Of a stretch of DNA of 64,000 nt, positions 5,587 to 47,680 are shown in pieces. A program made the position numbers and the translations under genes. Every line of letters starts with the position of its first letter. Position 1 is the first letter of the stretch. The stretch lies in assembly GCA_021769135.1 (NCBI GenBank), contig JAETTM010000003.1:62001-126000 (forward strand), written 5' to 3'. The notes under the pieces are model-generated. The model was not told the DNA's origin. It saw nothing but the letters and a program-made list of their open reading frames with translations, and ran no database searches. The DNA comes from Lachnospiraceae bacterium. GTDB taxonomy: Bacteria > Bacillota > Clostridia > Lachnospirales > Lachnospiraceae.

Positions 5587-6135
5587 ATGGTTATCACTAT
5601 GAAATATATACTATTATTCATCAAAAAAACATTGCGGTTTGTCCTCAAACCGCTTTCTTTCCTTCCTGCCATTTTGGTCATGTACATGATTTTTCGGCTT
5701 TCCGCCCAGGACGGCGTAACCAGCAGCCAGCTCAGCCTCAAGGTCAGCCAGAAAATAGTTGTGACTGCGGACAAAATCCTGGAGAAAGACCTTTCAGACG
5801 AACAGATTAAACACTATGTGAACCGGATTCACTATTATGTCCGAAAATTGGGCCATATTACGGAATACTTTATTTTAGCGGTATCCATTGCATTCCCCCT
5901 CTACGTCTACGGGCTTAGGGGCATTCCCCTTATGCTGGTGGCCGGCTTGTTCTGCGTAGGTTTCGCCGCTTTTGATGAATACCATCAATCCTTCGTAAGG
6001 GGCAGGGGGCCTTCCAAAAGGGATGTGGCCATTGACAGCATTGGGATTTTCATCGGGATTGTCCTTGTGCGAATCGTGGGATGGACAGGAAGAATGACCA
6101 TATTCCGCCCTCTTTCCAATCATAGGGGGAGGTAA
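5587..6135 (+). CDS. VanZ-like family membrane protein
   Basis: 182 residues with three to four membrane segments (about residues 22-38, 95-113, 117-135 and 153-170). The VanZ signature is clear: RKLGHITEYFILA near residue 89, then FDEYHQSFVRGRGPSKRDVAIDSIG near residues 132-156, read here as FDEYHQ, FVRGRGPS and DVAIDSIG. VanZ proteins are integral membrane proteins; VanZ itself gives low-level teicoplanin resistance, but most homologues have no known role and nothing here points to glycopeptide resistance. Start at 5587 follows GAGAAAGG; a second ATG at 5599 is possible. Confidence 0.85.
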   Translation: MVITMKYILLFIKKTLRFVLKPLSFLPAILVMYMIFRLSAQDGVTSSQLSLKVSQKIVVTADKILEKDLSDEQIKHYVNRIHYYVRKLGHITEYFILAVSIAFPLYVYGLRGIPLMLVAGLFCVGFAAFDEYHQSFVRGRGPSKRDVAIDSIGIFIGIVLVRIVGWTGRMTIFRPLSNHRGR

Positions 6136-43255: not shown

Positions 43256-44314
43256 ATGAAAAAAATATCTGTCTTAGCCATATGCCTGGCGGCCGTCTTC
43301 TCCTTCATGGGCTGCGACGGCTCCCCTTCCGGGGAAAACGGGGAAGTAATCGTTTATAACTGGGGGGAATATTTAGACCCGGAAACCATTGAATTATTTG
43401 AAGAAGAAACCGGCATCAAAGTAATCTATGATGAATTTGAAACCAACGAAATTATGTACCCCAAGGTGGAAGCCGGGGCATCGGAATATGATGTCATCTG
43501 CCCTTCCGATTATATGATACAGAAAATGCTGGAAAACGACCTTTTGGCGGAACTTAATTTCGATAACCTCCCCAATGCAAAAGCCAATATCGGCGCACAA
43601 TACTGGGAACAATCCAAAGAATTCGACCCGGAAAACAAATATTCCGTTCCCTATTGCTGGGGCACTGTAGGAATTTTGTACAATAAAACCATGGTAGATG
43701 ATGCCGTGGACAGCTGGAACATCCTCTGGAACGAAAAATATAAGGACAATATCCTGATGCAGGACTCTGTGCGTGACGCTTTCATGGTCGGCCTGAAACT
43801 GAACGGCTATTCCATGAACTCCACAAATACTGAGGAATTGGAAACCGCAAAGAATTCCCTCATCCAGCAAAAGCCTTTCGTTCAGGCCTATGTGGTAGAC
43901 CAGGTCAGGGATAAAATGATAGGCAACGAAGCCGCCATCGGCGTCATCTATTCCGGGGAAGCCATCTACACCCAAAGGGAAAACCCTGATTTAGAATACG
44001 TCATCCCAAAAGAAGGCACCAACGTATGGATTGACTCCTGGGTCATCTCAAAGAATGCGCCCAATAAAGAAAACGGTGAAAAATTCATCGACTTCATGTG
44101 CCGCCCGGAAATCGCCCTGATGAACTTCAACTTCATCACCTACTCCACCCCCAACGATGCGGCCAGAGAGTTAATCGAAGATGAAGACATCCGGAACTCC
44201 CCCATCGCCTTTCCCGATTTATCCCAATACGATAATCTGGAAACCTTCCAATATCTTGGGGAAGAAGCCGACAGAATATACAACGACCTCTGGAAAGAAG
44301 TAAAATCCGAATAA
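43256..44314 (+). CDS. potD: Spermidine/putrescine-binding lipoprotein
   Basis: 352 residues. An N-terminal signal ends in a lipobox-like FSFMGC, so the protein should be anchored by lipid outside the membrane. The mature part has the PotD pattern VYNWGEYLDPETIELFEEET, YDVICPSDYMIQKML, PYCWGTVGILYNKTMV and VIPKEGTNVWIDSWVI. It delivers polyamines to PotBC. AGGAGG is seven bases before the ATG. It is the last gene of the operon; the long palindromic element begins two bases after its stop. Confidence 0.95.
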   Translation: MKKISVLAICLAAVFSFMGCDGSPSGENGEVIVYNWGEYLDPETIELFEEETGIKVIYDEFETNEIMYPKVEAGASEYDVICPSDYMIQKMLENDLLAELNFDNLPNAKANIGAQYWEQSKEFDPENKYSVPYCWGTVGILYNKTMVDDAVDSWNILWNEKYKDNILMQDSVRDAFMVGLKLNGYSMNSTNTEELETAKNSLIQQKPFVQAYVVDQVRDKMIGNEAAIGVIYSGEAIYTQRENPDLEYVIPKEGTNVWIDSWVISKNAPNKENGEKFIDFMCRPEIALMNFNFITYSTPNDAARELIEDEDIRNSPIAFPDLSQYDNLETFQYLGEEADRIYNDLWKEVKSE

Positions 44315-44316
44315 CC

Positions 44317-44587
44317 AATGCCCTCTCTTCCTAGCTTTCCCTCCTGAAAAGCGTAGGAAGAGAGGGCATTCCCATCCGTTTCTGCTGCCTTGTTTTCTGC
44401 AGCGGTTTTGCTTAGCAGAATGACCAAAAACCCAGGGAAGCCGTGCCACGGACGGCACGGCTAGTCTGTATGCGGCACGGAAGCCGCTTACAGACGGCCC
44501 GGACGGCCGCCACAATCTTCCCATTCTGCTTAGCAAACCCCTGCAGAAAACCCGGCAGCAGAAACGGATGGGAATGCCCCCTCTTCC
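44317..44587. repeat. 271-bp multi-hairpin palindromic element between potD and proA
   Basis: Nearly the whole 278-base convergent gap is base-paired. (1) 44317-44333 pairs perfectly with 44354-44370 (17 bp, extended by GCTTT/AAAGC). (2) 44356-44389 pairs with 44554-44587 (33 of 34 positions), and 44393-44422 continues with 44522-44550, giving an imperfect stem of about 67 bp. Helices 1 and 2 compete for 44356-44370. (3) Inside are three hairpins: AGCCGTGCC/GGCACGGCT (44439-44462), GTCTGTA-GCGGC/GCCGC-TACAGAC (44464-44495) and CGGCC/GGCCG (44495-44509), whose loops all contain CGGA. There is no open reading frame and no T run typical of terminators. Confidence 0.8.
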
Positions 44588-44592
44588 GGCCT

Positions 44593-45846
44593 CTACCTTA
44601 TCTGCCCCTCCCCCTCAATCAAATACTTATAAGAAGTCAATTCCTTCACCCCCATAGGTCCCCTGGCGTGCATTTTCTGGGTACTGATTCCAATCTCCGC
44701 GCCAAATCCAAATTCAAACCCATCGGTAAAGCGGGTGGACGCATTGACATATACACAGGCCGCATCGATTTCGTTCAGAAACGTCTCGGCATTTTTCTTA
44801 TTTTCCGTTATAATGGCTTCGGAATGCTTCGTATTGTATTTATTGATGTGGGCAATTGCCTCTTCCATCGTTTCCACTGTTTTGATGGAGATAATATAAT
44901 CCAGGTATTCCTTCCCATAATCCTCTTCCGTTGCTTCCCTGGCATCCCCTATCAATCCGCATGCTATTTCATCCCCCCGCATCTCCACATTCCTCGATTG
45001 CAGGGCCTGCGCCAACTCAGGCAGGAAGCTGTCCGCTATGGCGCGATGGACGACTAAGGACTCACAGGCATTGCAGACGCCGATGCGCTGCGTTTTCGCA
45101 TTTATGATAATGGGCAGCGCTTTATTAAAATCCGCGTATTCATCCACGTAGATATGGCAATTTCCTGTTCCAGTTTCAATAACCGGAATTGTGCTGTTTT
45201 CCACCACGCTGCGAATCAGCCCGGATCCTCCCCTGGGAATCAGCACATCCACATATTGGTTCAATTTCATAAAACGGGAGGTCACCTCCCTGTCTGCGCT
45301 TTCAATCAGCTGGAGGGCATCCTGGCAAATGCCGTTCTTCCTCAAGGCGTTCCTGATGGAGGCAGTAATCGCCGCGTTGGATTTCAAGGCATCGCTGCCG
45401 CCCTTAAGTATAACCGCATTCCCCGCTTTAAAACAAAGCCCGAAGGCATCCGCCGTTACATTCGGACGCGATTCGTAGATAATGCCGATAACACCGAAAG
45501 GTACCCTTACTTTTCTGATTTTCAGCCCGTTAGGGCGCATGAATTCTTCCATGACTTCTCCTACCGGGTCAGCCAGCTCCGCTACCTGCTCCAGCCCTTC
45601 CGCCATGGCCGCTATCCGCTCTTTATTTAGCCGGAGCCTGTCCAGCATACCCGGAGGCATCCCATTTTCTTCCCCTTGTTTTATGTCTTTTGCATTCTCT
45701 TCTAAAATGATTGAACTATCGGCAATCAATTCCTTTGCCGCCGCCCTAAGCGCATGGCTTTTCTTCTCCGAGGTCAGCCTCTGCAGTTCATATTTTGCGG
45801 CTGCCGCCTTTTGTCCCATTCTAATTAAATCCATGTTTTTAACCAT
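44593..45846 (-). CDS. proA: Glutamate-5-semialdehyde dehydrogenase (gamma-glutamyl phosphate reductase)
   Basis: 417 residues. NADPH-dependent reduction of gamma-glutamyl phosphate, second step of proline synthesis. Motifs: [47 protein letters not shown], and the catalytic Cys in [16 protein letters not shown]. The first ATG (45846) is one base after AGGAG; a second ATG at 45834 is the other choice. It ends the proB-DUF896-fthC-proA group. Confidence 0.96.
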
Positions 45847-46795: not shown

Positions 46796-47680
46796 TTAGG
46801 AATGCATCTGTTCCACAAACCCCGGCAAATCAAAGTATGCATCCCGGCTTCCTACGAACAAGGTGCCGATATCCTGCCCGTCCAATATGCGGTGCAGTAC
46901 CTTAATATCTTTGCTATTGGCAATTACCATATCGATATGGGAGCTTGTAGCTATCTTGGCCGCTATCAGCTTCGTGTTCATCCCTCCGGTCCCCACATCG
47001 CTTCCCGTAGAAGGCTTGCCCATCTCCATCAATTCCTCGCTTAATTCTTCCACTATCCGAATAAACCGCGCATCTTTATTTTTTCTCGGATCGTCGGTGT
47101 ACAGCCCATCGATATCCGAAAGCAGTATGAGCAGATCCGCCTCCACCAGCGCTGCTACAATGGCTGAAAGGCTGTCATTATCGCCAAATTCTATCTCATA
47201 AGTAGCTACCGTATCGTTTTCGTTCACAATGGGGATAACGCCCAGTTTAAACAGCTCCGAGAAGGTATTATGGGCATTATAACGGTTCAGATTGTCCACA
47301 ATTGTATTCTTTGTCATCAATATCTGGGCCGCTACCTGATTGTATTCCGCAAAGATTTTCTGGTAAGTCATCATAAGCCTGGCCTGTCCTACTGCCGCGC
47401 ATGCCTGCTTTTCTGCAATTGCCCTTTCGCCTGCCTGCCCGAATTCCCTAAGATGGACCGCTTTCTTTCCCACCGCAATTGCCCCGGAAGTCACCAGCAC
47501 GACATCCTTTCCCCGGTTTCTCATATCGCAAAGTTCCCGTACCAGGACATCCAGTTTCGTGTAATCCAAATCCCCGGTTTCCGGGTGCTGCAGCGAAGAG
47601 GAACCAATTTTCACTACAATCCTCTTTTTATCCTTCAATCGTTTCCTATACTCTTCATGATTTCCATTTTTCTTCATCAC
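46796..47680 (-). CDS. proB: Glutamate 5-kinase, short form without PUA domain
   Basis: 294 residues. It phosphorylates glutamate, first step of proline synthesis. Motifs: RIVVKIGSSSLQH, LVTSGAIAVGKKAV, INENDTVATYEIEFGDND, LLILLSDIDGLYTDDP and GTGGMNTKLIAAKIA. The amino-acid kinase domain is complete, but the C-terminal PUA domain of many ProB proteins (total about 370) is missing. The start is GTG 47680 or the next codon ATG 47677. First of the proB-DUF896-fthC-proA group. Confidence 0.95.
   Translation of the reverse strand: MMKKNGNHEEYRKRLKDKKRIVVKIGSSSLQHPETGDLDYTKLDVLVRELCDMRNRGKDVVLVTSGAIAVGKKAVHLREFGQAGERAIAEKQACAAVGQARLMMTYQKIFAEYNQVAAQILMTKNTIVDNLNRYNAHNTFSELFKLGVIPIVNENDTVATYEIEFGDNDSLSAIVAALVEADLLILLSDIDGLYTDDPRKNKDARFIRIVEELSEELMEMGKPSTGSDVGTGGMNTKLIAAKIATSSHIDMVIANSKDIKVLHRILDGQDIGTLFVGSRDAYFDLPGFVEQMHS

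Follow-up and report, generated by a model that had tools for sequence, protein, structure and literature searches.

The 271-bp palindromic element lying between a potD-like gene and proA is, on balance, best explained as belonging to a MITE-like family of palindromic repeats, dispersed in the genome, that has a TwoAYGGAY core and putative CsrA-binding loops. The core is almost certainly TwoAYGGAY (Rfam RF01731), and the element as a whole is very probably a mobile-type repeat. It occurs within a 64-kb window (the whole stretch of 64,000 nucleotides that was analyzed, to which all positions refer) and is a further member of a catalogued, poorly understood repeat. Seen in this way, an unexplained Rfam motif can be put to the test as a repeat of mobile type that bears the mark of protein binding. 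Among the three identities offered by the original prediction, which were a structured RNA 3' of potD, a mobile cruciform, and a two-way terminator of a new kind, the mobile cruciform is best supported, by the dispersed copies, the terminal inverted repeats and target duplications of a sister subfamily and the absence of a preferred orientation relative to genes.

The core matches RF01731 in architecture and sequence over the whole model (Table 1), and the only other match at gathering level within the window is a tRNA. As first described, a 34-base stem with one A.C mismatch, together with its continuation, can be read directly from the sequence, as can three hairpins with GGA-containing loops (ACGGAC at 44448-44453, ACGGAA at 44477-44482, and CGGAC at 44500-44504). 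The third hairpin exists, but its stem is just 4 bp and it lies outside the Rfam consensus hairpin pair. The window copy differs from the catalogued motif in having an extra 5' hairpin and in its second loop, where GGA is kept but the final position does not fit AYGGAY. A distance of 29 nt separates the GGA motifs of hairpins 1 and 2, a spacing typical of the TwoAYGGAY family, and the CTTAGCAGAA-type sequence of the left inner arm is found again in other copies. The strong structure claimed for the element was confirmed: the RNA fold of 44300-44600 reaches -169.1 kcal/mol against a mean of -88.7 (SD, 5.3) for shuffled sequences, a z-score of -15, and none of 100 shuffles was as stable.

Table 1. 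Features of the element and its neighbors in the window
Feature	Positions	Strand	Basis
Left neighbor, solute-binding protein, potD-like by context	43256-44314	+	Pfam SBP_bac_8, 1.4e-30
Extra 5' hairpin: arm tip 44351-44370 and its inverted duplicate 44319-44337	44318-44370	+	
Left tip, GCGTAGGAAG	44351-44360	+	Common to L017 (own genome) and L294 (G205)
Left outer arm	44356-44389	+	Paired with 44554-44587, one mismatch
Core, TwoAYGGAY (RF01731) match, model 1-168	44389-44554	+	89.6 bits, gathering score 43
Left inner arm, contains TTGCTTAGCAGAATG	44390-44424	+	Fold
Hairpin 1, loop ACGGAC (fits AYGGAY, CsrA-type loop)	44440-44461	+	Sequence, fold
Hairpin 2, loop ACGGAA	44464-44495	+	Sequence, fold
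Small third hairpin, loop CGGAC, absent from Rfam consensus	44496-44508	+	
Right inner arm, contains CATTCTGCTTAGC	44519-44553	+	Fold; comparison with other copies
Right outer arm	44554-44587	+	Paired with 44356-44389
Right tip, CTTCCGGCCTC	44583-44593	+	Common to L294 (G205)
Right neighbor, proA	44593-45846	-	Pfam Aldedh, 2.1e-23
AA_kinase gene, proB-like, further on	46796-47680	-	

The element is not a one-off riboswitch. Its host is placed in the Lachnospiraceae by the nearest ProA sequences, and a search of the host genome (4.43 Mb in 152 contigs) shows 17 dispersed RF01731 matches; when the 271-bp sequence itself is the query, portions of other copies are recovered at 69 to 83% identity. 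One of these copies (L008, G000:C28:61458-61618) lies about 0.4 kb beyond the left end of the window, and the same contig thus carries two. Among the matches listed, the 16 genomes of the host genus have from 0 to 58 copies, with four genomes having none. RF01731 is carried by 35 of 200 genera sampled from the family, where at most 13 candidates were scored per genome, and by 28 of 291 genomes sampled from the class, which represent ten families and of which 20 exceed the curated cutoff. All 17 class-level loci inspected, 16 of them from eight other families, consist of a long stem around small hairpins. The 271-bp sequence had no match in the plasmid and phage collections, and carriage by either was rejected. 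In one genome, several copies are no more than about 25 bases away from the end of a contig (G143:C6, C7, C20, and C112), and assemblies thus seem to break at the repeat or its hairpin.

Copies show no preference for a side or strand of genes. The window copy sits between convergent genes, 3' of both, the potD-like gene being itself preceded by two BPD_transp_1 permease genes. The 140 copies that could be classified, by open-reading-frame heuristics rather than a gene finder, are distributed as 40 in sense and 47 in antisense to both neighbors, 25 between convergent genes, and 28 between divergent genes, and only 2 of 160 copies lie inside a long open reading frame. This random orientation argues against a role as terminator, untranslated region or attenuator; nor can every copy be assumed to have sense transcription, and many may never be transcribed in the motif sense. 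The potD-proA location of the window copy is incidental.

The evidence for mobility comes from a sister subfamily that is present in the same genomes and whose outer arms end in GGAAATCAATTTT. The counts of duplications, arms and loops are based on 118 plus 42 copies, or 160 in all, with L017, a partial copy at a contig end, excluded; in 34 of the 160 both ends are recognizable (6 of these copies belong to the window's genome, 27 to G202, and 1 to G037). Direct repeats flanking these 34 copies agree on average at 4.18 of 8 bases, compared with 2.06 when the two flanks are taken from different copies (z = 9.7), and in 8 of the 34 the agreement extends to 7 or 8 bases. These values are for offsets 4 and 3, one setting in a grid of lengths and offsets whose adjacent settings are equally strong. 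By eye, 8-bp direct repeats are perfect at L219b, L239, and L256 and match at 7 of 8 bases at L007 and L012, both in the window's genome. With up to 2 mismatches allowed, the end motif occurs 45 times in the window's genome (G000) and 93 times in G202, whereas its reversed pattern occurs 4 and 2 times. The sister subfamily ends in terminal inverted repeats, and its target duplications of 8 bp are established statistically over 34 copies; the family is therefore MITE-like.

The window copy belongs to another subfamily, which has conserved tips in L001, L017, and L294; both of its own tips, GCGTAGGAAG and CTTCCGGCCTC, are held in common with L294. The support from target duplications comes from the sister subfamily and not from that of the window copy, and these sequences give good support to a MITE-like origin of the family, which for the window copy itself is likely. 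The original prediction had named as its refutation many identical, unexpressed copies with target duplications. Dispersed copies were found, as were duplications in the sister subfamily, but the copies have diverged from one another. Inspection by eye of the sister-subfamily ends (CACGGAAATCAATTTT, with at most 2 mismatches) in G000 and G202 showed no inward-facing pair 1 to 3 kb apart, as an autonomous partner would have; many MITEs lack such a partner, and hence its absence is not decisive.

Bacterial MITEs such as the Correia elements are short, noncoding, and multicopy, with terminal inverted repeats and target duplications. The present family shares these traits, the last two of them seen in its sister subfamily, and it differs in its structured inner core, conserved loops, and arms that vary and yet remain complementary. 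TwoAYGGAY was described by Weinberg et al. in 2010 as a probable RNA that is not cis-regulatory, from taxa that include the Clostridiales, and the text found of that description mentions neither mobility nor terminal repeats nor target duplications (PMC2864571). No account of TwoAYGGAY as mobile was found in the literature searched, which took in few subscription papers.

Derivatives that lack the core, or have an altered one, also occur. L295 (G202:C1:1396341-1396723) has the same terminal repeats and long arms around another, A-rich core without GGA hairpins, and L305, L306, L307, and L308 are short coreless palindromes with terminal repeats alone, possibly collapsed copies. At L233, L253, and L308, the host sequence beyond the terminal repeats is itself palindromic, as if the element had entered a hairpin loop or the palindrome had grown outward.

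The arms differ more between copies than the core does, while continuing to pair. Among the 22 copies of subfamily A in G202, median identity is 0.90 in the core and 0.60 in the left arm (0.49 for random sequences under the same aligner), and despite this low identity the arms still pair within each copy. Over all 160 copies, 16,888 aligned arm columns comprise 14,407 Watson-Crick pairs, 423 G-U pairs, and 447 A-C mismatches. Comparisons of 127 pairs of similar copies, which are not independent and draw on 181 copies including L294 of G205, yielded 713 two-sided changes and, among one-sided changes, 255 to G-U, 224 to A-C, and 375 to other mismatches. An RNA helix under selection would be expected to have more G-U than A-C, and since no such excess is present, a DNA-level process probably keeps the arms paired. 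One arm may be corrected by the other during replication through quasipalindrome template switching, a process reported from E. coli (PMC7202029). In the window copy, the additional hairpin at the 5' side fits such a process. Six tRNAs used as a control gave 8 G-U and 0 A-C among 133 pairs, a sample too small to carry weight.

These counts bear on how covariation in this motif is to be interpreted. Covariation has been used in print to extend the TwoAYGGAY helix (PMC7657543, PMC11701678), and the original prediction had proposed covariation analysis as a check. The arm pairs do covary, but G-U equals A-C, and covariation in the TwoAYGGAY helix can stem from DNA-level copying between the arms of a palindrome; comparison of G-U with A-C tells selection on RNA from such copying.

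Unlike the stems, the loops are conserved in sequence, across ten bacterial families. Two GGA hairpins are present in 140 of the 160 copies, one in 14, none in 5, and three in 1, whereas a TCC hairpin was encountered only once. Among the 297 GGA hairpins, 221 have A two bases ahead of GGA and 237 have T directly after it, and the distance between GGA motifs has a median of 29 (quartiles, 28 to 29; range, 8 to 31). GGA is not absolute: of the 17 class-level loci, 12 have two GGA hairpins, one has three, three have one, and one has none. Loops of CGA type also occur (ACGAT, 8 times). The stems of the GGA hairpins have 22 G-U against 29 A-C; with no G-U excess there either, selection on RNA is visible in the loops at most.

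The Rfam model that yielded most copies favors GGA in its scoring, and elements were therefore also picked by their terminal repeats. Of nine such elements of full length, eight bear the GGA pair, although these eight may overlap with Rfam matches; L295 is the exception, and a shorter end-picked element, L304, has one GGA hairpin. GGA loops as a generic trait of hairpins were considered and rejected: 133 perfect hairpins in 913,100 bases contain GGA or TCC in 17 cases, a frequency like that of other triplets. One perfect 8-bp hairpin elsewhere in the window (5625-5660) has the loop TCCT, or AGGA on the opposite strand, in terminator-like surroundings.

Paired GGA motifs in hairpin loops are the signature of CsrA sites, and both the window copy and its family possess them. 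The host genome encodes a CsrA of its own, whose gene adjoins fliW. In the family sample, CsrA scores above the cutoff in 34 of 35 carrier genera and 74 of 165 noncarriers (P = 1.8e-9, Fisher test, sub-threshold matches in G003 and G036 having been dropped beforehand), and in the class sample it is present in 24 of 28 carriers and 71 of 263 others (P = 1.5e-9), with both P values treating genera or genomes as independent and ignoring phylogeny. Restricting the class sample to well-assembled genomes leaves CsrA in 21 of 22 carriers. The control family Y1_Tnp is found in 18 of 35 carriers and 98 of 165 noncarriers (P = 0.45). Flagellin, which is present in 35 of 35 carriers and 75 of 165 noncarriers, tracks the repeat at least as well as CsrA does, and motile ancestry may therefore explain the CsrA link. 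Within the genus the link fails, CsrA being present in 9 of 12 carriers and 3 of 4 noncarriers, and one carrier without a CsrA match is a 97% complete genome.

CsrA binding by TwoAYGGAY was predicted, and a sponge role proposed, in 2014 (PMC4333381). Binding of CsrA by transcribed copies is a prospect that we place slightly short of probable; it would be the most economical account of the loops, and it is the likeliest RNA-level role predicted for them. The sponge RNAs CsrB, CsrC, and RsmX/Y/Z likewise present paired GGA motifs in hairpin loops, but the present element, which is only putatively transcribed, has two sites in each copy, long palindromic arms, and dispersed copies that number up to 58.

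The preferred explanation, that of a MITE-like repeat with putative CsrA-binding loops, combines these observations as follows. The repeat is multicopy and intergenic, lacks an orientation preference, and has a sister subfamily with terminal repeats and 8-bp target duplications. Its arms, which diverge among copies yet stay complementary without G-U bias, point to upkeep of pairing at the DNA level, and template switching from arm to arm would maintain this complementarity. The A-N-GGA-U loops, some 29 nt apart, recur in copies with unrelated stems; were a copy transcribed in the motif sense, its two loops would bind a CsrA dimer, and the element would serve as a scattered CsrA-binding site or decoy. 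To our knowledge, FliW is the only established CsrA antagonist in such bacteria, and if CsrA does bind, Gram-positive CsrA would gain dispersed RNA antagonists besides FliW. A bolder version, which is speculative and rather improbable, is that TwoAYGGAY elements are transposable CsrA decoys spreading in motile Clostridia, with copy number tuning free CsrA. Each copy would then plant a paired CsrA site outside genes, up to 58 per genome, and its arms would be rewritten in concert by DNA template switching, the resulting covariation mimicking selection on RNA.

The strongest alternative, somewhat unlikely but to be taken seriously, is a purely selfish MITE whose RNA is inert and in which the GGA hairpins persist through common descent or because transposition requires them at the DNA level. 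The terminal repeats and target duplications of the sister subfamily, the parity of G-U and A-C in arms and hairpin stems alike, the random orientation, and the derivatives with a different core or none are all as expected of such an element. The persistence of the loop sequence over ten bacterial families in which stems are unrelated argues against it, as do the co-occurrence of CsrA with carriers and the fate of the orthologous site in a relative, L029. There, only hairpin 1 remains (23 of 25 bases identical), and it retains GGA though both adjoining loop bases have changed.

That L029 hairpin was the only match when the 271-bp sequence was compared with 80 ProA loci of relatives (blastn, E value of 0.01), and a conserved 3' element of potD was rejected on that basis. 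A short hairpin similar to the outer tips is found in L030, and L065 and L031 have other sequence at the site. From their sequences, the L029 and L030 sites are decayed or different, and with these remnants it appears that the window copy was not kept intact in its nearest relatives. At the proA-potD site of Lachnospiraceae bacterium 28-4 (L031:6300-6520) there is another long-stem palindrome, of about 220 bp, in which no TwoAYGGAY core was found.

A vertically inherited, structured regulatory RNA, either a CsrA-sponge small RNA or another, with its long stem under RNA selection, is very unlikely. TwoAYGGAY is an Rfam motif, and both helix covariation (PMC7657543, PMC11701678) and the proposal of a sponge (PMC4333381) are on record; these favor such an RNA, but the lack of a G-U excess, the range of 0 to 58 copies in one genus among the matches listed, the sister-subfamily target duplications, and the random orientation all oppose it. 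For the same family, the proposed structured RNA 3' of potD is borne out only by the match of the core to an RNA motif; copies are tied neither to potD nor to the 3' ends of genes.

The two-way terminator for convergent genes is extremely unlikely. The window copy does lie between convergent genes, and a long GC-rich stem could pause polymerase, but there is no T tract on either side of the stem, as the original prediction had itself remarked. Moreover, convergent placement, at 25 of 140 copies against 14 of 129 control gene pairs, is not significantly preferred (P = 0.12), and 28 of the 140 copies lie between divergent genes. The terminator was rejected because the T tract is missing and orientation is random.

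A riboswitch or attenuator that exchanges the long stem for the 5' hairpin is scarcely credible, although both pairings are possible. The competing pairings were confirmed: 44356-44370 has a perfect partner in 44319-44333 and another, one mismatch aside, in 44573-44587. The fold of lowest energy (-169.1 kcal/mol) contains the 5' hairpin, and when 44317-44337 is kept unpaired the best fold has -162.4 kcal/mol, so that two exclusive states are possible on paper for the window copy. The switch rests wholly on the extra 5' hairpin, an inverted duplicate of the arm tip, and a comparable local hairpin in flank or arm occurs in just 4 of 179 copies, the window copy included. The riboswitch reading was rejected, as hardly any other copy has the alternative partner; in addition, the element is 3' of both neighbors rather than upstream of a regulated gene, and its family has no orientation preference.

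Mobilization by a Y1 transposase, as a REP/IS200-like single-strand hairpin element, agrees with the strand-symmetric DNA hairpins and with head-to-head pairing that recalls BIMEs, but it is scarcely credible, and was rejected, given that Y1_Tnp is not associated with carriers (P = 0.45) and that terminal inverted repeats with 8-bp duplications, seen in the sister subfamily, are not known as a Y1 feature. REP and BIME elements are dispersed intergenic palindromes, some arranged in head-to-head pairs; the present repeat resembles them in both respects and differs in being far longer, in the target duplications of its sister subfamily, and in having no association with Y1 transposases. Among the matches listed, 12 pairs of copies lie less than 500 bp apart, of which 10 are head-to-head, 2 are tandem, and none are tail-to-tail (binomial P = 3.8e-5 for the head-to-head excess at an expectation of 1/4). 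Examples of such close pairs are G202:C3:653045-653596 (L219), G202:C1:1195130-1195730 (L221), and G212:C149:9184-9740 (L275).
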